From NCBI RefSeq assembly GCF_036226885.1, contig NZ_CP109027.1, positions 3,410,001 to 3,474,000 of the forward strand: DNA of 64,000 bases, read 5' to 3'. Both the position numbers and the translations under genes were made by a program. The notes under the pieces are model-generated. The model worked only from the letters and a program-made list of their open reading frames with translations. It was not told the DNA's origin and made no database searches. Each line of letters opens with the position of its first letter. Position 1 is the stretch's first letter. This stretch comes from Streptomyces sp. NBC_00663. GTDB taxonomy: Bacteria > Actinomycetota > Actinomycetes > Streptomycetales > Streptomycetaceae. Below are positions 1 through 14,553 of this stretch, piece by piece.

Positions 1-1183
1 CCCCGCGCACCCGCGGCCCGTGCCGACGCCACCACAACCGTGCCCACAGCAGCTGAAGCCCCGCCAGGAGCAGCATCGTGACAAGGGCGTCGAGCCGCAG
101 CAGCGGGCCGGTGTCGGTCAGCAGGCGGTGGCCGGAGCGGGCCAGCAGCGGCCAGGTGACGTCCAGCAGCAGCCGCAGCCCCACGAAGACACAGCCGATC
201 GAGCCCGCCACCGCGCCCGCGGCGTACGCCTTCAGCATCCGGCGCTCGGCGGGTCGCCGCCCGGCCAGCGGGTCGCGGCTCGCCCGGCCCAGGAGGCGGG
301 CCCCGAGGTGGCGGAGCCAGGCACCGGCGTCGCCGTACAGGTTGCGGCACCCGGTCAGGTCCTGGGCGACGAAGTACAGGTCGGTGCGCATGAAGACCAG
401 GCACTGGTTGGCGAAGGAGGTGACCAGGGTCATCGCGACGACCGGCAGCAGGGGCGAGTCGGCACCGGCCGCGAGGGCGAGCAGACAGCCGCCCCAGACG
501 GCGCCGTCCACGGCGAGCCCGGACAGATACACGGTGAGCCGCGCGCGGCGGCCCTTGAGCCAGATCCCGGACACCTCGGTCTGCGCCACCAGGAACTGGA
601 GGCGGGTGCCCAGCCGCACCCGCCCGGCCACTCCGGCGGCCCGCGCGGTCACCAGGTGCGCCAGTTCGTGCAGGCCGATCAGACACCAGGCGGCGAGCGA
701 CTGCACGAGGAGGTTGACGGTGCCGAGGCGCGCCCACACCAGGTCGTCCCAGGACGGCAGACCGCGCCCCCGCAGCACGACGGCCACGAGTCCGGCCACG
801 GGGACGGCGAGGACGGCGGCGTGCAGAACGGGAGCGAGCACCCAGCGGACGTGGCGCTGCCGCAGCCGGGGGAGGGAGACCGGGACCGGCGCGGTCTCGA
901 AGCGCCGGGTGCCGATCGCGGCGACCAGACCGGCGGCGGCCAGCGACTCGGCGAACGCCTCGACATCGAGGTCACGGCCGCGGTCCCGCCGCAGCGCGCC
1001 GCGGGCCTGGCCCACGGTGCGCCCCTCGGCGAGCAGCCGGAGCGCGGCCATGCCGATCTCGGGCAGGGCGACGACCTGCTCGTTGCCCTGCCGTCCGACG
1101 ATCCACTCGTCGCGGTCCTGCCGCACCTCCAGCGGGTGCAGGACCACCGTGGGGTCCGGTTCCGGCGGCGCGGCGGCCGTCAC
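1..1183 (-). CDS. M50 membrane metalloprotease with N-terminal PqqD/RRE-like domain (3' end outside window)
   Basis: Partial: 394 codons are visible and the gene runs off the left edge. The GTG start at 1183 overlaps the TGA of the upstream ThiF-like gene (GTGA), so the two are probably translationally coupled. Residues about 12-90 resemble the PqqD winged-helix fold: a beta hairpin, then a helix with LPEIGMAALRLLAEG and a C-terminal DVEAFAESLAAAGLV helix. This fold is used by RiPP enzymes to grip leader peptides. Membrane segments follow, with the zinc motif HELAH at residues 172-176 and a likely third ligand Asp near 268 (MRTDLYF...QDL, replacing the family's LDGY...DL pattern). M50 enzymes cleave within or near the membrane, so the inferred job is to process the peptide encoded at 2316-2456. 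The family call is firm; the substrate is inferred. Confidence 0.85.
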   Translation of the reverse strand, partial: MTAAAPPEPDPTVVLHPLEVRQDRDEWIVGRQGNEQVVALPEIGMAALRLLAEGRTVGQARGALRRDRGRDLDVEAFAESLAAAGLVAAIGTRRFETAPVPVSLPRLRQRHVRWVLAPVLHAAVLAVPVAGLVAVVLRGRGLPSWDDLVWARLGTVNLLVQSLAAWCLIGLHELAHLVTARAAGVAGRVRLGTRLQFLVAQTEVSGIWLKGRRARLTVYLSGLAVDGAVWGGCLLALAAGADSPLLPVVAMTLVTSFANQCLVFMRTDLYFVAQDLTGCRNLYGDAGAWLRHLGARLLGRASRDPLAGRRPAERRMLKAYAAGAVAGSIGCVFVGLRLLLDVTWPLLARSGHRLLTDTGPLLRLDALVTMLLLAGLQLLWARLWWRRHGPRVRG

Positions 1184-2253
1184 GGCCCGCACAACGGGCA
1201 GTCGGGCCGGGCCGGGTGCTGTACGAAGACATGCTGGTCGGGCGCGATCAGGTTCACCCCGCGCACAAAGCCGGGCGGGGTGGCACCGATGCCGGTGAGC
1301 AGGGCGACGACCTCATGGGCGATGAGCTGCCCGGAGACACCGGCGGCCGGGGCCAGGGCGCCGGCGGTGCCCAGGTGCGGGGTCCACCCCGGCTTGAGCT
1401 TGGCCTCCTCGCCGGCGCCGACGCACTCGAAGCAGGGGCCCTCGGGTGCGTACACCCCGACCGTCGCCAGGGGGCCGCTGTAGCCGGCGGACACCCAGGG
1501 CACCCCCAGGGACGCGCAGACCCGGTTCGTCATCTTGCGGATGAGGTCGCCGCGGGGCTCGTCCGCGCACAGCACGAAGACGTCCCGGTCCCGCACGAGT
1601 TCGGTGAGCGCGGCCTCGGTGTCGGCGCGACGGCTCTCGTGGGTGTAGCGGCCCGACGAGTTCACGGCCGCGAGCCGGCGGGCCGCTGTCTCCGCCTTGG
1701 GGCGGCCGAGGTCGGCCTCGGTGTAGAGCACCTGCCGGCTGAGGTTGGACTCCTCGACGACGTCGGGGTCCACCAGGTGCAGGGTGCCCACGCCCATGGC
1801 GGCCAGCGCCCACGCGGCGTGACTGCCCGAGCCGCCCACGCCCAGCACGGTCACGCGGGCCTGTTTGAGGCGCAGTTGGGAGGACCAGGCGTCGATGCCG
1901 GGGCGCAGGTCGACGTACCGGAAGTAGGTGTGGTTCCTGCTGTAACGCTCGCGCTCGCGGTCGGTGAGGCCGTCCGGAGGAGTGGCGGCGGCGTCCTCGA
2001 CATAGCCGGTGTCCAGCAGTTCGGCGAGCAGCCGGCGGGCGCCTTCGGGGCCCAGCGCGGGGTGGCTGTCCGCGAGGGTGCGCTCGATCCGGTCCGGCGG
2101 TGTGGCGCCGTCGAGCAGGGTGAGTGCGTCCCAGACCCAGCCGTGCGGATCGGCGATCTCCGCCGCGACTCCGTAGACCCCGCCGCCGAGCCGGAGGGTT
2201 CCGTCGTCGAAGCGGTGCGGGGCGTGCTCCGCCTTGATCCGGGGCAGCTGCAC
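1180..2253 (-). CDS. ThiF/MoeB/MccB-like E1 adenylyltransferase with N-terminal RRE-like domain
   Basis: A 357-residue protein starting at GTG 2253, with GAAGGAGA just upstream. Residues 1-90 look like a PqqD/RRE winged helix (VWDALTLLDGATPPDRIERT, then LLAELLDTGYV). Residues 133-260 are the E1 Rossmann core, with GVGGSGSH at 138-145 and DPDVVEESNLSRQV at 162-175 matching the nucleotide-binding and Arg-finger motifs of ThiF/MoeB. A zinc site is formed by CxxC at 274/277 and CPLC at 352/355, the latter almost at the C-terminus. The family adenylates a carboxylate using ATP. MccB and PaaA relatives do this on short ribosomal peptides. No catalytic thiol position is obvious. The gene lies between the small peptide gene and the M50 protease and is predicted to modify that peptide. 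Confidence 0.85.
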   Translation of the reverse strand: MQLPRIKAEHAPHRFDDGTLRLGGGVYGVAAEIADPHGWVWDALTLLDGATPPDRIERTLADSHPALGPEGARRLLAELLDTGYVEDAAATPPDGLTDRERERYSRNHTYFRYVDLRPGIDAWSSQLRLKQARVTVLGVGGSGSHAAWALAAMGVGTLHLVDPDVVEESNLSRQVLYTEADLGRPKAETAARRLAAVNSSGRYTHESRRADTEAALTELVRDRDVFVLCADEPRGDLIRKMTNRVCASLGVPWVSAGYSGPLATVGVYAPEGPCFECVGAGEEAKLKPGWTPHLGTAGALAPAAGVSGQLIAHEVVALLTGIGATPPGFVRGVNLIAPDQHVFVQHPARPDCPLCGP

Positions 2254-2273
2254 GATCGTCTCCTTCGAAGAAC

Positions 2274-2307
2274 GACCCCGGCGGCGGTTCGGGCCGCCGC
2301 CGGGGTC
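2274..2307 (-). terminator. Strong hairpin between peptide gene and ThiF gene (attenuator-like)
   Basis: A perfect 14-bp GC-rich stem (GACCCCGGCGGCGG and its complement, 2274-2287/2294-2307) with a 6-nt loop starts 9 nt after the stop of the peptide gene. It ends 20 nt before the ThiF start codon, and no U-run follows. A stem at this place fits partial termination or mRNA stabilisation that would give more peptide than enzyme, as is common after RiPP precursor genes. Confidence 0.6.
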
Positions 2308-2315
2308 TGCCGTTG

Positions 2316-2456
2316 TCAGGTGTCGATCTGCTTGTTCTGGATCGTCTCGATCTTGTCCAGGAGCCGGACCTCGATGAACTCGGGCTGCTGCGGCGCCTCG
2401 GAGTTGCCGAGCGTGCCCTGGTCACCGAAGGTCTCGGCGTGCGTGGTGTGCTCCAC
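2316..2456 (-). CDS. Small 46-residue peptide, candidate RiPP precursor
   Basis: The GTG start at 2456 is preceded by a good ribosome site (AGGAAGAG, 4 nt spacing). The peptide is acidic, has no Cys, Tyr or Trp, and has no signal peptide or membrane segment. It begins MEHTTHAETFGDQG, has a Gln/Pro-rich middle (APQQPEF), and ends in an amphipathic Ile/Leu/charged stretch closing with NKQIDT. I know no family for it. It is called a precursor because of context: a strong ribosome site, a hairpin immediately after the stop, and two downstream enzymes carrying peptide-gripping RRE-like domains. Glu/Asp and Lys residues in the C-terminal third could be acyl donors and acceptors if the E1-like enzyme activates a carboxylate. 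It could also be a small regulatory protein. Confidence 0.6.
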   Translation of the reverse strand: MEHTTHAETFGDQGTLGNSEAPQQPEFIEVRLLDKIETIQNKQIDT

Positions 2457-2538
2457 GGTGCTCTTCCTTTCCGATGGATCGGATGCGGCGGGCGGCCGTC
2501 GGTGACGGCCATCCCGCTTCTGCGTCCCAGCCTCGGAC

Positions 2539-2604
2539 AGGGGTCTTTCGCTTGTCTTTCGCCTGTCTTTCTCCGGTCTTTCAGCGGCCTTTCAGCGGCC
2601 TTTC
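2539..2604 (-). promoter_or_regulatory. Six tandem 11-bp repeats upstream of the peptide gene
   Basis: Read on the minus strand, six contiguous units each start with GAAAG at exactly 11-bp spacing: two identical GAAAGGCCGCT, then GAAAGACCGGA, GAAAGACAGGC, GAAAGACAAGC and GAAAGACCCCT. They lie between the end of the bldKE-like gene (2645) and the peptide start codon (2456), about 80 bp upstream of it. One repeat per helical turn places every copy on the same DNA face. Direct repeats at 11-bp period are the known layout of SARP-family activator sites in Streptomyces. The heptamer here does not match a SARP consensus I know. Confidence 0.75.
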
Positions 2605-2644: not shown

Positions 2645-3775
2645 CTAGTCGTCGTTCAGCTCCTCCTCCAGCGCCGCCAGCGCCGGATCCAGCACGATGT
2701 CCTCGTCCCGCCCCTCGGTCGTCGGCTCCTCCGGGAAGTGGCAGGCCGTCAGATGTCCCTCGTGGTTCCCGGAGATCCGGACCAGCGGCGGCTCCTCCGC
2801 CGCGCACTTGTCCTGCGCCTTCCAGCACCGCGTCCTGAAGCGGCAGCCCGACGGCGGTGAGATCGGCGACGGAACGTCCCCGGCGAGCCGGATGCGCTCA
2901 CGTCCCGCGGTCTCCGCCCCTCCCTCCACCAGGCTCACCTCGGGCACCGCGGAGAGCAGGGCGTGGGTGTAGGGGTGCCGGGGGCGGGTGTAGATGGACT
3001 CACGGTCGCCGACCTCGATGATCTTGCCGAGGTACATCACGGCCACGCGCTGCGAGAAGTGCCGTACGACGGCCAGGTCGTGGGCGATGAACAGGAACGC
3101 GATGCCCAGCTCCTGCTGGACCTTCTGGAGCAGGTTCACCACCTGCGCCTGGATGGAGACGTCGAGGGCCGAGACCGGCTCGTCCGCCACGATCAGCTTC
3201 GGCTCCAGCGCCAACGCGCGGGCGACACCGATCCGTTGACGCTGGCCGCCGGAGAACTCGTGCGGGAAGCGGTTGTAGTGCTCGGGGTTGAGGCCGACGA
3301 TCTCCAGGAGTTCGCGGACCCGCCGTTCCCGCCCGCCCTCCGGCTCGATGTCGTTGATCTCCATCGGACCCGCGATGATCTTGCCGACCGTCTGCCGCGG
3401 GTTCAGGGACGAGTACGGGTCCTGGAAGATCATCTGGATCTCGGAGCGGATCGGCGCCAGCTGACTGCGGCTGGCGTGCGTGATGTCCTTTCCGCGGTAC
3501 GAGATCGTCCCGGCCGTCGGCTCCAGCAGCCGGGTGATCAGACGGCCCGTGGTCGACTTGCCGCAGCCCGACTCCCCCACCAGGCCGAAGCTCTCGCCGA
3601 CGTTGACCGTCAGATCGATGCCGTCCACGGCCTGGACCGCGCCGACCGTACGGCGGATCGGGAAGCCGCCCTTGACGGGGAAGTGCTTGGTGAGCCCCTG
3701 GACGACCAGCAACGGGTCGCCCGACGCCTCTGCGACTGCCTCGCGCGGGGCCGGGAGGACGAGGTCCTCTTTCAT
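2645..3775 (-). CDS. bldKE: Oligopeptide ABC importer ATPase, OppF/BldKE type
   Basis: A 376-residue cytoplasmic ATPase. The Walker A is GESGCGKST, the signature [14 protein letters not shown] and the Walker [13 protein letters not shown]. The C-terminal oligopeptide-transporter extension carries a Cys-rich patch ([14 protein letters not shown]). The ATG start at 3775 follows a near-perfect AGGAGG. It powers peptide uptake together with the second ATPase at 3806-4870 and the two permeases. The gene order permease, binding protein, permease, ATPase, ATPase matches the bldK operon of S. coelicolor, where the importer takes up an extracellular peptide needed for aerial growth. The symbol rests on order and neighbours (typA, sdh), not on a database match. 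A few acidic residues extend the C-terminus. Confidence 0.85.
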
Positions 3776-3805
3776 GACGTGTCCTCCTAGGACTGGGACT
3801 ACGGA

Positions 3806-4870
3806 CTAGCCCAGGCTGGGCTTGATCTCTTCGATGAAGATGGTCCGCTTCTGGTCCGCCGTGAGATGGCAGGCGGAGGCGCGGTCCGGGGCCAGCAAGG
3901 GGCGTTCGTCGGTGCAGCGGGTGCCGTCGACCCGGCTCTGGAAGGTGCAGCGGGGGTGGAAGCGGCAGCCGGACGGGGGGTTCAGCAGTGACGGGGGCTG
4001 GCCCGGGATCGGTGCCAGCGGGGCGTCGAGGTCCGAGTCGATGCGCGGCATCGAGTTCAACAGGCCCCAGGTGTAGGGGTGCTGGGGTGAGCGCAGGACC
4101 TCGTTGGTGGTGCCGCGTTCGATCGCGCCGCCCGCGTACATCACCATGATGTCGTCGGCCATGTCGGCGATGACACCGAGGTCGTGGGTGATGAAGATGA
4201 TCGCGGAGCCGAACTCCTGCTGGAGGTCCTTCAGGAGGTCGAGGATCTGGGCCTGGACCGTGACGTCGAGGGCTGTGGTGGGCTCGTCGGCGATCAGCAG
4301 GTCGGGGTCGCAGACCAGGGCCATGGCGATCATCGCGCGCTGACGCATACCGCCGGAGAACTGGTGGGGGTAGTCCTTCGCCCGTTCCTTGGGGTGGGGG
4401 ATGCCGACCTTGCCGAGCATCTCCACCGCGCGGTCCCAGGCGGCCTTCTTCGAGGCGCCCGTGTGCTTCATGTACGGCTCGGCGATCTGCCGGCCCACCG
4501 TGTAGTACGGCGACAGCGCGGTGAGCGGGTCCTGGAAGATCATGGCGACCTTGTTGCCGCGCAGCTTCTCCAGCTCATGCTCCCGGGCGGTGGTCAACTC
4601 CCGCCCCTCCAGCAGGATCTCGCCCTCGACGGTGGTGAACTTCGGGTTGTGCAGCCCAAGGATCGTCAGGTTGGTCACGGACTTGCCGGAGCCGGACTCG
4701 CCGACGATGCCGAGGGTCTTGCCGCGCTCCAGGTCGAAGGAGAGCCCGTCGACGGCGCGGACGGTGCCGTCCTCGGTGCGGAAACTGACGTGCAGGTCGC
4801 GCACCGAGAGGAAGGCACCCGCGTCGGAGGGAACGGGCGCCCCGGCCGGTTCGGTCAGAGTGGTCACCAC
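3806..4870 (-). CDS. bldKD: Oligopeptide ABC importer ATPase, OppD/BldKD type
   Basis: A 354-residue ATPase with Walker A GESGSGKS, signature [15 protein letters not shown] and Walker [13 protein letters not shown]. The C-terminal segment of the oligopeptide/HPY type ends with paired cysteines ([13 protein letters not shown]). Two GTG codons in tandem (4870 and 4867) can start it; AGGAG lies upstream and fits either. The gene is 13 nt from the permease gene upstream and 30 nt from the next ATPase, so one operon is clear. It forms the asymmetric ATPase dimer with the OppF-type partner. Confidence 0.85.
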
Positions 4871-4883
4871 AGAACTCCTAGGC

Positions 4884-5864
4884 CTAGGACAGCCGGACGC
4901 GCGGGTCGATGAAGGCGTAGCAGGCGTCGACGACGATGTTGCAGAGCAGGATCACGGCGGCGGCGAACAGCATCACGCCGAGCAGCAGCGGCAGATCGCT
5001 GAACTGCACCGACTCCACCGCGAGCCGTCCGAGACCGGGCAGTCCGAAGGTGTACTCGGTGATGATCGCGCCGCCGAGCAGAGAGCTGAGGTCGATGCCG
5101 AGGATGGTGATGATGGGGATCAGCGAACCACGCCAGGCGTAGCGGAAGAAGACGTAGCGGCCGCTCATGCCCTTGGCGCGGGCGGTGCGGACGTGTTCCT
5201 CCTGGAGCTGCTCGATCATCGAGGAGCGGGCCATACGGGTGTACTGCGCGGCGAAGATGGTGGACAGCACGGCCCAGGGGATGATCAGCCCGGTGAACCA
5301 GGCGACGGGGTTGTCGGTGATCGAGGTGTACTCGGGCTCCTCGAAGATGTGCGTCTGGTAGACGAGGATCGCGAGCGCCAGGGGCCCGAGGAAGTAGATC
5401 TGCATCGAACTGAGCACCATGGAACCGGCGGTGAAGGACTTGTCCACGAGGGTGCCGCGCTTCCAGGCGGCGAGCAGTCCGGTGCCGAGGCCGACGAACA
5501 GGAAGACGACGGTGGCGCCGGCCGCGAGCGACAGCGTGAGCGGCAGCCGGTCCATCAGGGTCGACCACACCTGCTCGTTGGTGTGGTACGAGTACCCGAA
5601 GCACGGGGCGGGGCAGGGCCCTTGCTCGAAGTCATTGCGTCCGGTGACCAGCCCGGACAGGAAGATCCAGAACTGTTCCGGGATCGACTTGTCGAGTCCC
5701 AGTGTGTGGTGGATGTTCGCCAGGGAGTCCGGCGTGCAGGTCTTGCCGCACATCAGCAGCGCCGGGTCGCGGGGCATGCCGAAGAAGAGCAGGAAGGCGA
5801 CCACGGTCAGCAGGACCAGGATCACGAGTGAGCCGAGGATCCGGCGGAAGAGGAAGCGCAGCAT
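4884..5864 (-). CDS. bldKC: Oligopeptide ABC importer permease, DppB/OppB type
   Basis: About 326 residues. It starts MLRFLFRRILGSLVIL, with a first membrane helix typical of OppB-type permeases. An external loop of about 120 residues contains cysteines (MCGKTCTPDS and PCPAPCFGY), and five further helices follow. The family's coupling motif is in the last third (EEHVRTARAKGMSG), which docks on the ATPases. I prefer ATG 5864 because translation from there begins at the conserved first helix. A longer start at GTG 5915 is open but adds a non-conserved tail. The Shine-Dalgarno for 5864 is weak. Confidence 0.82.
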   Translation of the reverse strand: MLRFLFRRILGSLVILVLLTVVAFLLFFGMPRDPALLMCGKTCTPDSLANIHHTLGLDKSIPEQFWIFLSGLVTGRNDFEQGPCPAPCFGYSYHTNEQVWSTLMDRLPLTLSLAAGATVVFLFVGLGTGLLAAWKRGTLVDKSFTAGSMVLSSMQIYFLGPLALAILVYQTHIFEEPEYTSITDNPVAWFTGLIIPWAVLSTIFAAQYTRMARSSMIEQLQEEHVRTARAKGMSGRYVFFRYAWRGSLIPIITILGIDLSSLLGGAIITEYTFGLPGLGRLAVESVQFSDLPLLLGVMLFAAAVILLCNIVVDACYAFIDPRVRLS

Positions 5865-5954
5865 CTCAGTGGCAGCTTTCGGGCGAAGCCTGGGCGGCGC
5901 GGTGCGCCCCGCCACGGGAACGGGACGGGACGCACCGGACGCCGCTTGGACGGG

Positions 5955-7763
5955 TTACTTCACGAAGAGCCTGCGCGGGTCGACGCCGCCGATGACGTCG
6001 TCGTACGCGAGGCCACCGATCTTGGACCCGGCGATCTGGGTCTGCTTGTAGTACGCCGTCGGGATGTTGGAGACGACGTCCTTCACGATGTACTCGTTGA
6101 TCTTGTTCCAGGCCTCGGCGGCCTTGATCGGGTCGGTGATGGTGTTCGCCTTGTCGATGTCGGCGTTCACCTTGGGGTCGTTGATGTGTGAGTAGTTCGA
6201 GGAGCCGTCCTGGATCTGGCGGCCGTCGTAGAGCGGCGGGATCACGGTCGACGCGCTCGGCCAGTCGGCACCCCACGCGGTGTGGTAGATGTCGTAGTTG
6301 TTCTTGACCTTGCTGACGTTGTCGTAGTACGTCTCGGCCGGGATCTCCTGGCGCTGCACGTCGAAGCCGGCCTTCTCCAGGCCCGCCGCCATGGCGGTGG
6401 AGTACTGCTGGCCCTCAGGGGTGTTGATGTAGCCGAAGGTCAGCTTCAGGCCCACCTTGCCGGCCTTCTCCAGGAGCTGCTTGGCCTTGGCCGGATCACC
6501 GGCGGGCTTGGCCTTCTTGCCGAAGGGGTCGAACTTGGGGTCGTAGCCGGAGACGGTCGGGCTGATCAGACCGCCGGCGACCTCCATCGCGTCGGTGCCG
6601 CCGAAGGCGCGCACGAACGGCGTGATCGGCAGGGCGTAGGCGATGGCCTCGCGGACCTCCTTGGACTGCATCTCCGGCTGGGACAGGTTGATGTTCATCT
6701 GTCCCACGTACGGCTGGTAGCCGGAGACCGTGCGGTTCTTCATCGCGGCGTCGTTCAGGACCTTGGTCAGGTTGCCCGCGTCGACCTGGTTGCTGAGACT
6801 GATCGCCGTCGCGTTGGCGCCGGTGTCGTCGAGGATGGCCTTGGTCGAGTCCTCGAACTGCTTGTTGAACTCGATGTTGAACCGGTCGACGTACTGGTGC
6901 CGGACCGCGTCGGTCTTCGGGTCCCAGTTGGTGTTCTTGACCAGCGTCATCGTCTTGCCCGACTTGAACTCCGAGATCTTGTAAGGACCGGAGGTCATCG
7001 GGGACTTGTCGTACTTGACCTTGGTGTCCTTCTCGGCGGACACGACGGAGTAGCCGGCCATGGCGAGCGCGTACGGCAGGTCGGGCTTGGGCGACTTGAA
7101 CTTGAAGACAATCGTTTTGTCATCGGGCGTCTCCAGGACGGTGTCCGGGAGGTGCTTGCCCTTGTACGGGCCGTCCGGGAGGAGCTTGCGGTACTCCGTG
7201 CCCGGGGTGTCGGCCAGCCACTGCTGGATGTAGGTCGGGCCGTTGGAGATGAACGGCGCGAAGAGCCGCTCGAAGGTCTGGCGCACGTCCTTGGCGGTGA
7301 TCGCGGAGCCGTCGGCCCACTTGATCCCGTCCTTCAGCGTGTACTTCCAGGTCTTGCCGCCGTCGCTGGTGGTACCGCTGTCGGTGGCGAGGTCGCCGAC
7401 GACCTGGTGCTTCTTGCCGTCGTCGCTGGTGGCCTTGTAGGCGGTCAGACCGCGGTGGATGAGCTGCGAGAGGGCCATCTCGTCGGAGACGTAGATCTGC
7501 CCCGGGTCCAGGTGCGCGAAGCTGTCCCGCTGGAGCACGTTGACGGTGCCGCCCGCCTTGGCGCCGGCGATCTCGGCGGCCGGCCCCGTCGAGTCCTTGG
7601 CGTTGCCGAAGGAGATGCCGGCCTGCTGGCGCTGGGCGTTCTCCTTGTCCTGCTTGTCGTTGTCGCTGCCTTTGCTGCCGCCCTCGCTGCAGCCGGTGAG
7701 CACGAGAGCCCCCGCCGCCAGCAGTGAGAGCGCGGCGTACGCGTGGCGTCCACCCTTACCCAT
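5955..7763 (-). CDS. bldKB: Peptide-binding lipoprotein of the ABC importer (family 5), BldKB type
   Basis: About 602 residues. A signal peptide of about 25 residues ends in the lipobox LTGC. A Ser/Gly/Lys-rich linker leads into a full family-5 extracellular solute-binding domain (GGTVNVLQRDSFAHLDP; WKYTLKDGIKWADG; DVRQTFERL). It is a membrane-tethered receptor that captures oligopeptides outside the cell and hands them to the two permeases. ATG 7763 and an adjacent GTG at 7766 are both possible starts. In S. coelicolor loss of this protein gives resistance to a toxic tripeptide and a bald phenotype; whether the ligand is the same here is not visible. Confidence 0.85.
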   Translation of the reverse strand: MGKGGRHAYAALSLLAAGALVLTGCSEGGSKGSDNDKQDKENAQRQQAGISFGNAKDSTGPAAEIAGAKAGGTVNVLQRDSFAHLDPGQIYVSDEMALSQLIHRGLTAYKATSDDGKKHQVVGDLATDSGTTSDGGKTWKYTLKDGIKWADGSAITAKDVRQTFERLFAPFISNGPTYIQQWLADTPGTEYRKLLPDGPYKGKHLPDTVLETPDDKTIVFKFKSPKPDLPYALAMAGYSVVSAEKDTKVKYDKSPMTSGPYKISEFKSGKTMTLVKNTNWDPKTDAVRHQYVDRFNIEFNKQFEDSTKAILDDTGANATAISLSNQVDAGNLTKVLNDAAMKNRTVSGYQPYVGQMNINLSQPEMQSKEVREAIAYALPITPFVRAFGGTDAMEVAGGLISPTVSGYDPKFDPFGKKAKPAGDPAKAKQLLEKAGKVGLKLTFGYINTPEGQQYSTAMAAGLEKAGFDVQRQEIPAETYYDNVSKVKNNYDIYHTAWGADWPSASTVIPPLYDGRQIQDGSSNYSHINDPKVNADIDKANTITDPIKAAEAWNKINEYIVKDVVSNIPTAYYKQTQIAGSKIGGLAYDDVIGGVDPRRLFVK

Positions 7764-7880
7764 CACTCAGATTCCACCCATCTTGTGTCACCGGTGCGAC
7801 CTGCGCCAGTGCGGTTTGAAGTGCGGACCGGCAACGTGCCATCCGGTCGGTGTCGGGCGAGGACGCCCACAACTCCTCGG

Positions 7881-12282: not shown

Positions 12283-14553
12283 CTACTTCTTCGACGGGCT
12301 CGCCGAGGGGTGTGCCCCCTTCTTCAGGAAGCCCATGTCCTCGTAGACCGGCGTCTGGAAGCCGAAGGCACCGGCGTTGGCGATGTTCTTCCTCGCGGCC
12401 GTGAGCTGGGGTCGCTGATACAGCGGGATCGATCCGGCGGCGGCCCAGATCCGGGAGTCGGCCTTGCGGATCAGGCCCCGGCTCTCGCCCTCGTCCAGCG
12501 TGGAGACGGCCTGGTCGAAGAGCTGGTCCACCTGGTCGGTGCCGACGCGGGTGTAGTTCTGCTCGACGTTCAGGGAGCCGTCGGCGGCCGGGACCGGCTT
12601 GGCGTAGATCGGGCGGGCGTCGGTGGCGGGGAAGGCGGAGGCGGGCCAGGAGTACAGGGCGAGGTCGAACTGGCCGGCCGCGACGTGGTCCTTGAAGTAG
12701 CTCTCGTCCGCGACCTCGGTGATCTCGGTGCGGATGCCGACCTTCTGGAGCATCCCGGAGATCCGGTCGGCCACCGTGCGCAGGGTCTGCGAGCCCGGTC
12801 CCGACGGCAGGACGAAGCGGAGCGTGAGCGGCTTGCCGTCCTTGGCGAGCATCCCGGCCGCGGCGCCGACGGGCGCGGCGGTGCCCCGGGGGGCGTAGGC
12901 GCCGGGGGCACCGCCCTGCTTCAGCTTGTTCGCGTACTGCTTGCCGTCCTGCGCGAGGTGCTGGGAGCCGTCCCCGCTCTTCCCGTGCTTCTTGGGATCC
13001 TGCTTCTTCTCCCGGTCGGCCTCGCGCAGGACCTTGTCGGCCTCACGCAGGACCTTGTCCGCCTCGCGCGGCGCCTTGTCGTCCTCACCGACGATGTACG
13101 TGTCGTCGTCACCGTCGTCCCCGGACTCGCCGTCCTCCGCGGCGGCCTTCTCGCCCTTGGCCCCGGCGGCCTTCTCGCCCTTCTTCTTCTCCTCCTTCAG
13201 CGGTCCGCCCGGCACCCAGCCGGCGTCCGCGAGGAGGGCCTGCGCCTCGGTGGTGTCCTGGCCGCCGAGGGCGCCGCTGTTGTCGGCGTAGGCGGCCTGC
13301 CCGGCGAGCGCGAGGTGGCTGCCGACCGGCTCGGCGGGCAGGCCGAGCGGGCTGAGCACGACCGAGGCGAGGGCCTCCCGGTCGAGGGCGCGGGCCACGG
13401 CACGGCGGACCCGCTCGTCGGCGAGGGGGCCCTCGGCGCCGTTGAGAGCGAGCTGGGTGTAGGCGGGCTCCAGGGAGCGGCGGACCTCGAAGCCACGCAG
13501 GGCCTGCTGCTGGCGGGCGTACGCGGAGATCTCCTCGCGCTGCTTCTCGCGGGCGCTGATCTCCTCGTCGGCGGCGTCCTCGTCGGTGCCCTTGGCGACG
13601 GCCCAGGAGCGCAGTGAGTCGGCGGCGCTGAGGTTGCTGCCGGGGCCCATGAGCGGCGTGGCGCTCGGCCGGCCCTTCGCCGCGACGGTGATCCGCTTGA
13701 CCGACTCGGGGTCGATCTCGGCCAGGTCCAGGCTGCCCGCGGCGAGTGCGGCGGCCCGCTTGTCGCGGGGCACGGCGCGCAGCACGATCTCGTCTAGCTT
13801 GGCGGGCCTGCCCCACCAGCGCGGGTTGCGGGCGAGGGTGAGCTCGTCGTCCTTGCGGTCGACCTTCTTCAGTGCGAAGGGACCGGCGGTGACCTTGAGC
13901 TTCTTGCGGGCGCTGTCGTTGAAGGAGTCCGGGGTGCCCATGACGTCCTTCGGGTACAGCGGGGAGAACAGCGACTTCCAGTCGGCGTACGGCCGCGCGA
14001 AGGTGACCTTGACCTCAAGGTCGTTCTTGCCGCGCTCGATCTTCTCGATGCGGTCGTAGCCGGCGTTGCGGGCCGTCCAGTACGCGCTGTCCTTGCCGGA
14101 CAGGGCGCGCCACTGGGCGGCGAAGTCGGCGGCGCCGATCTCGCGGCCGTCGCTCCAGACAGCCTGCTGGTTCAGCTTGTACAGCACGACCTGGCGGGGC
14201 TCGGTCTCGACGACCTCGGCCTTCTCCAGGTAGTCGGCGTCGACCTGGGGGCGGCCGTTCGCGTCGAGCCGGTACATCGCCGGCAGGACGGCCTGGGCGA
14301 CCCGGGTGGTGGTGGCGTCGGCGTCCGACTGGAACGTGTTGAGGGTGTCCGGCACGGAGTCCACCGCCCAGCGCAGGGTGCCGCCGTCGGCGACCAGGGA
14401 ACGCTCGGCGATTCCGATGTCCTGCCCGGCGAGCGGCTTGCCGGCCGGATCCTCGGAGCTGCACCCGGAGAGCAGCGGGACCGCGAGCGCGCCCGCGCTC
14501 AGGAAGGCGACCGAGCGCATCACCGCGCGCAGTGCGACGCCGTGTGGGGACAT
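12283..14553 (-). CDS. Orphan family-5 peptide-binding lipoprotein with a large charged insertion
   Basis: 756 residues from ATG 14553 (GGAGG upstream). The signal peptide ends in the lipobox LSGC. The family-5 binding fold is recognisable (GGTLRWAVDSVPDTLNTF, QAVWSDGREIGAADFAAQW, DEVVLRAVP-type segments). No permease or ATPase genes are adjacent. Between the family landmarks LLADAGW and KDGKPLTLRF, residues about 450-568 form an extra Lys/Glu/Asp/Gly-rich, probably disordered segment that includes a heptad-like READKVL repeat. The coding DNA shows matching repeats of about 21 bp near 13018-13085. The usual length for the family is 520-600 residues, so the insertion explains the excess. It may deliver ligand to a distant transporter or act as a sensor. 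Confidence 0.83.
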   Translation of the reverse strand: MSPHGVALRAVMRSVAFLSAGALAVPLLSGCSSEDPAGKPLAGQDIGIAERSLVADGGTLRWAVDSVPDTLNTFQSDADATTTRVAQAVLPAMYRLDANGRPQVDADYLEKAEVVETEPRQVVLYKLNQQAVWSDGREIGAADFAAQWRALSGKDSAYWTARNAGYDRIEKIERGKNDLEVKVTFARPYADWKSLFSPLYPKDVMGTPDSFNDSARKKLKVTAGPFALKKVDRKDDELTLARNPRWWGRPAKLDEIVLRAVPRDKRAAALAAGSLDLAEIDPESVKRITVAAKGRPSATPLMGPGSNLSAADSLRSWAVAKGTDEDAADEEISAREKQREEISAYARQQQALRGFEVRRSLEPAYTQLALNGAEGPLADERVRRAVARALDREALASVVLSPLGLPAEPVGSHLALAGQAAYADNSGALGGQDTTEAQALLADAGWVPGGPLKEEKKKGEKAAGAKGEKAAAEDGESGDDGDDDTYIVGEDDKAPREADKVLREADKVLREADREKKQDPKKHGKSGDGSQHLAQDGKQYANKLKQGGAPGAYAPRGTAAPVGAAAGMLAKDGKPLTLRFVLPSGPGSQTLRTVADRISGMLQKVGIRTEITEVADESYFKDHVAAGQFDLALYSWPASAFPATDARPIYAKPVPAADGSLNVEQNYTRVGTDQVDQLFDQAVSTLDEGESRGLIRKADSRIWAAAGSIPLYQRPQLTAARKNIANAGAFGFQTPVYEDMGFLKKGAHPSASPSKK

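Follow-up and report, generated by a model that had tools for sequence, protein, structure and literature searches.

In Streptomyces sp. NBC_00663, positions 1-2604 of the 64,000-nucleotide stretch analyzed here (the window) very probably constitute a RiPP cassette, encoded on the minus strand in the order 46-residue precursor peptide, hairpin, E1-like adenylating enzyme, and membrane M50 protease. A tiny ORF accompanied by two RRE-bearing enzymes is a usual RiPP architecture. The precursor gene (2316..2456, minus strand) begins with a GTG codon at 2456, has AAGGAAGAG upstream, and encodes a leader-like block, IEVRLLDKIET, followed by the tail IQNKQIDT, with Lys as the fifth residue from the end (position -5). 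It is separated by a strongly folding intercistronic hairpin (2270..2305, minus strand; 14-bp stem), likely an attenuator or processing site, from the gene for the E1-like (ThiF family) enzyme (1180..2253, minus strand; 357 residues, N-terminal RRE), whose stop codon overlaps the start of the M50 gene (GTG at 1192) in the sequence GTGA. The M50 zinc protease (1..1192, minus strand; 411 residues, N-terminal RRE-like domain) carries HELAH at residues 175-179, and its gene ends 44 bases outside the window edge (full gene, L009:14957-16192). A preliminary description of this DNA had reported the tiny ORF with its ribosome site, a peptide devoid of Cys, Tyr, and Trp, the hairpin, and the GTGA-coupled pair of E1-like enzyme and HELAH protease, all of which were recovered. 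Its statement that the cassette holds just these two enzymes was incomplete, as outside the window, 136 bp after the M50 gene and in the same orientation, there is a gene for a 1130-residue SARP-NB-ARC-TPR protein (L009:11428-14820). Beyond it lie a convergent small SARP, a methyltransferase, and a mycothiol-S-transferase-like gene.

Within Streptomyces, the E1-like enzyme is present in 29 of 393 genomes (E ≤ 1e-60), and the M50 protease in 44 of 296 (E ≤ 1e-8). A scan of species genomes returned 489 E1-related stretches, some of which are possibly other ThiF proteins, and the best 80 of the 489 were analyzed. These 80 loci are all actinobacterial, and come from Streptomyces, Microbispora, Planotetraspora, Herbidospora, Nonomuraea, Micromonospora, Glycomyces, Amycolatopsis, Nocardia, and other genera. 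Using an iterated small-ORF profile, a precursor homolog was located near the E1 gene in 71 of the best 80 loci, with true matches scoring 24 to 66 bits, compared with at most 8 bits for other small ORFs. Because homologs with scores of at least 24 bits recur in this way near homologous E1 genes, the precursor ORF is more than a chance reading frame; a small ORF conserved beside its modifying enzyme is one feature by which RiPP cassettes are recognized. The comparison of gene order and small ORFs proposed in the preliminary description therefore gave a clear outcome: the gene set is found repeatedly and the small ORFs can be aligned, and this comparison now lends good support to the suggestion that the peptide is the substrate.

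The remaining nine loci are mostly from Pseudonocardiaceae, in which the E1 gene stands between SARP or NB-ARC-TPR genes; four such E1s (L142, L147, L151, and L152) are flanked by these regulators and have no recognizable precursor of the same family. Other groups of the family carry additional genes, namely DUF6879 (15 loci), SARP/NB-ARC-TPR (22 loci), and M14 carboxypeptidase-like genes, which adjoin the precursor (22 loci); in this M14-linked group the precursors are on the opposite strand and were found by reading intergenic DNA. A search of mobile elements gave one weak match in viral contigs and four records in a plasmid collection, at 38-46% identity. NCBIfam holds no model for the precursor or the M50 protease. 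Separately, two genes downstream of one E1-precursor pair lies a tRNA synthetase gene of class I, Trp/Tyr type (L118:8520-9686, plus strand), which may either serve in self-resistance as an additional copy or be an unrelated neighbor. A second M50 protein (∼30% identical) followed by a TPR protein was also observed (L043:16479-19899, plus strand), in a locus that contains a small ORF with MKKIAVRKAGTVRLTSAAASTYCCGTA; similar M50-TPR pairs occur in L070-L073, L075-L077, L081, and L082, and these are possibly another RiPP family.

The E1-like enzyme belongs to the ThiF-like adenylyltransferase superfamily, with a Pfam ThiF score of 152.6 bits (cut-off 28.1) and intact ATP and Mg sites by sequence. 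With a profile of 58 sequences, the best solved structures are PaaA and MccB, the PaaA match covering profile positions 3-228, including the N-terminal domain, and the structure model (pLDDT 92.5) matches MccB over its full length. The enzyme thus groups with these RiPP enzymes, in keeping with its earlier designation as ThiF/MccB-like. Its N-terminal domain is an RRE by this fold match to PaaA and MccB, and is predicted to bind the leader. Invariant among the 58 sequences are GxGGxG, R173, K186, D231, and four zinc-type cysteines (CxxC...CxxC), and the spacing of R173/K186/D231 is that of R167/K180/D225 in EnfB (PMC12250964). No invariant Cys outside the zinc set was found in these 58 sequences, and a ThiF-type catalytic cysteine is therefore not indicated. 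The PaaA/MccB match, the EnfB-like R/K/D spacing, and the lack of an invariant Cys outside the zinc set speak for the mechanism proposed below.

The M50 protein has the HExxH motif and the third Asp ligand of the site-2 protease family in its membrane domain, with H175, E176, H179, and D271 invariant in 32 sequences; its Pfam M50 score is 12.9, below the cut-off of 27.2. In the structure model (pLDDT 90.3), the membrane domain resembles SpoIVFB (Z 9.4, 132 residues, 3.8 Å) and an archaeal S2P (Z 7.5, 142 residues, 3.9 Å), and the N-terminal domain matches leader-bound lasso-peptide RREs (Z 10.5, 82 residues, 2.4 Å). By fold, then, the N-terminal domain is RRE-like and predicted to bind a leader, so that such a domain is found in both biosynthetic enzymes.

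All precursor groups share the motif [IV]x[IV]RxLDKxETx, preceded by a variable N-terminal part and followed by a short variable tail. The preliminary description had anticipated a conserved C-terminal block with a variable linker and had placed the product in the C-terminal third. A conserved block does exist, but as it is common to all groups (IEIRLLDKIET; IEVRLLDKIET in the window) and the residues after ET vary, it is the leader-like part, and the alignment suggests that the core is probably the last ∼8 residues. In the window's clade (eight distinct tails from 11 loci: IQNKQIDT, IQNKQIDS, IQSKQIDS, IETKAVSR, IQNKAVSR, IQNKHQDG, VKLKHVDG, and IDSKAVAR), Lys(-5) is the only invariant column among the last eight. 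Outside this clade, many of the tails have a high content of Ser, Gly, and Asn (e.g., GDSGGNGGS, GDSNSQGA, VCSNSTGN, GWPASNGNSN, and KICTITGD). Of the 41 non-redundant tails that lack Lys(-5), 27 have Ser or Cys at position -6, compared with 4 to 15 at other positions, and none of 5000 within-tail shuffles matched this count, a statistic that ignores relatedness; as a signal of the nucleophile, this enrichment is no more than suggestive. The Lys(-5) clade is supported (100/99) in the E1 tree and lies among Streptosporangiaceae E1s with mostly Ser/Cys(-6) tails, with the fork just above it being weak (87/86), a placement which would fit a change of nucleophile. At positions -5 and -6, several tails (TGQRANG, TTIRVLDMG, and TGWRVIGAGG) lack Ser, Cys, and Lys alike, and GDSGGNGGS has Ser at -7, so no single ring rule holds for the whole family. 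Tandem precursors, two or three with the same leader, occur at L049:8748-8948 (minus strand) and L126:5559-5916 (plus strand), and their tails contain Cys (AQSCPRCA, AVCHEDVPCS, and GVCQDCNYA), unlike the Ser-rich tails elsewhere.

In the mechanism that we propose, the RREs of both enzymes would bind the leader block IEVRLLDKIET, and the E1-like enzyme would adenylate the C-terminal carboxylate of the precursor. An internal side chain would then attack the acyl-adenylate, closing a small ring with the loss of water. The candidate nucleophile in the window's clade is Lys42, at position -5, whose attack would yield a macrolactam between Lys and the C-terminus spanning KQIDT. In most relatives, Ser or Cys at -6 would take this role, and the product would be a lactone or thiolactone of six residues. 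Removal of the leader would fall to the membrane M50 protease, which may also help to release the product. Ring closure by these named side chains is suggested by the invariance of Lys(-5) in the clade tails and the frequency of Ser/Cys(-6) elsewhere, and by the related enzymes IndF (PMC12150305) and EnfB (PMC12250964), which close rings on the C-terminal carboxylate. We regard this part of the mechanism as evenly poised; the conserved Lys could instead be a binding residue.

Two other routes, each improbable on present evidence, are serious rivals to side-chain closure. The peptide could be a scaffold, to the C-terminus of which the E1-like enzyme couples a small amine, amino acid, or nucleotide, with a peptidase acting at the C-terminus (M50, or M14 in relatives) freeing the small product, as TglG does in pearlin biosynthesis. 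Such a role would be consistent with the M14 genes beside the precursors, with the removal of C-terminal residues from scaffold peptides by the M50 proteases TglG and TmoG (PMC10885120), and with the additional ability of EnfB to amidate a C-terminus (PMC12250964), but the precursors end in different residues (T, S, R, G, N, A, D, E, and Q) where MccB-type coupling needs Asn, and coupling leaves the conserved Lys(-5) and Ser/Cys(-6) unexplained. The second, which we hold to be similarly unlikely, retains ring closure by the E1-like enzyme, but on a backbone amide (an imide, as proposed for EnfB) or on a Thr within the ET(T) motif. Use of a backbone amide has been reported for EnfB (PMC12250964), and ETT still precedes those tails that lack Lys, Ser, and Cys at both -5 and -6; the sole invariance of Lys(-5) in the window's clade would not be accounted for. 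Finally, that the two enzymes form no RiPP system but act on a ubiquitin-like, sulfur-carrier, or other substrate, with the small ORF incidental, is very improbable. In its favor, the E1-like enzyme also matches the MoeB and ThiF models of NCBIfam, all below cut-off; against it, the small ORF is conserved in both sequence and position, both enzymes have RREs, and an invariant catalytic Cys is lacking.

RiPPs made by E1-like enzymes are already established (PMC12250964), and the cassette can be set against several systems already described. The pantocin A enzyme PaaA and the microcin C enzyme MccB have the same RRE and ThiF-domain architecture and are the best sequence and fold matches, but the window's cassette differs in its M50 partner and SARP regulator; its precursor ends in Thr and not in the Asn of the microcin C type, and there is no Glu-Glu-Asn core of the pantocin A type in the 46 residues. 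IndF (indolylamide), EnfB (enterofaecin), and GrcB (thiolactone) of Firmicutes likewise combine a short precursor with an RRE-ThiF enzyme, and close a ring on the activated carboxylate (PMC12150305; PMC12250964). The family described here differs from these in its actinobacterial hosts, in a leader of IxIRxLDKxET as opposed to (V/I)RKA, and in having no radical SAM or M16 partner. The window's peptide has neither the Trp-containing hydrophobic C-terminus of indolylamides and enterofaecin nor the C-terminal Cys of the GRC type, and no match to radical SAM, the partner in GRC systems, was found among the scanned neighbors of the cassette. Membrane M50 zinc proteases also act in the maturation of RiPPs, as we propose here, in the case of EpeP (epipeptide) and TglG and TmoG (pearlin) (PMC10885120); the window's M50 protease differs in its own RRE-like N-terminal domain and in being paired with an E1-like enzyme. 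A global search listed 27,400 fusions of RRE and ThiF domains, with some groups left unassigned (PMC12150305), and the E1s of this family may be within that network. In the open-access papers searched, we found no description of the leader, the RRE-M50 partner, the tails, or their combination.

Upstream of the precursor is an 11-bp repeat array (2604..2543, minus strand), absent from the preliminary description, which consists of six direct GAAAGRC heptamers at exact 11-bp spacing and is the only run of at least four such repeats on either strand of the window. Direct repeats spaced by 11 bp are the layout of SARP sites (e.g., those of ActII-ORF4 and AfsR), and the array looks like a putative SARP operator; L083, L084/L043, and L088 have two to three GAAAGRC-type copies in the corresponding position. 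The downstream SARP gene encodes OmpR-type DNA-binding (Trans_reg_C, 33.3 bits) and BTAD (134.9 bits) domains, both over cut-off, along with NB-ARC and TPR regions. Its BTAD, NB-ARC, and TPR regions are shared with AfsR-type SARPs, and the repeats are as expected for SARP sites; it differs in scoring 443.7 against an AfsR cut-off of 1430, and in its linkage to a peptide-modification operon. Given this downstream gene and the repeat array, the SARP-NB-ARC-TPR protein probably activates the operon via the 11-bp repeats. Strong hairpins between precursor and E1 genes are found in 9 of the 11 clade loci, with mostly unrelated stem sequences, and we infer that a structure conserved in this manner fits an attenuator or processing element which would give precursor in excess of enzyme.

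The cassette is flanked by convergent oligopeptide-permease operons (window 2645-7766 and L009:141-8358). Import of a pheromone by these Opp proteins was considered and rejected: the same two operons are found tail-to-tail in the cassette-free genomes G011, G003, and G007, with other genes between them, and therefore mark an insertion site, variable in relatives, and not a part of the cassette. In two sister loci, L044 and L045, the genes directly upstream of the precursor encode an ABC exporter and a signal peptidase of the S26 type; a thioredoxin-like protein and a Cys-rich peptide of 56-57 residues are encoded nearby, and parts of this module are differently arranged in L088 and L047. The exporter module is absent around the window, and the window's genome has only distant homologs of the sister-loci ABC exporter (best 37% identity), none near the cassette. 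That no exporter stands beside the cassette in this genome, though sister loci have one, counts against the proposed mechanism. The Cys-rich peptides of 56-70 residues (e.g., MSKMFRGMVGRMADKLLPQTSAAAGCGGCETFRKSSGGQIYFVKCCWTPSCVLRCP), which have no NCBIfam model, were observed at L044:14061-14234 (minus), L045:8401-8571 (plus), L086:880-1050 (plus), L088:1693-1875 (minus), and L047 ∼12360-12570 (minus); together with the exporter, signal peptidase, and thioredoxin-like protein, they form a bacteriocin-like module.

To our knowledge, the ring-closing E1-like enzymes known so far have been described from Firmicutes and Proteobacteria. The family reported here is a distinct version of the E1-like enzyme, spread across many actinobacterial genera, and its recognizable leader and very short, diverse tails make it minable by sequence. 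It also explains the presence of tiny ORFs, ∼20 to 50 codons long, which gene callers readily overlook, and the proposed mechanism names a ring-closing residue that would differ between clades. If correct, side-chain closure would be a minimal means of making lactams and lactones at the C-terminus. A broader reading, which we hold to be improbable, is that these cassettes represent a widespread class of C-terminal macrocycles made by E1-like enzymes in actinobacteria, that the nucleophile has switched during evolution from Ser/Cys(-6), giving a lactone or thiolactone, to Lys(-5), giving a lactam, and that the ring peptide of the SARP-linked clade is a ligand of the SARP-NB-ARC-TPR protein; were this so, it would be a signaling peptide made by an E1-like enzyme.
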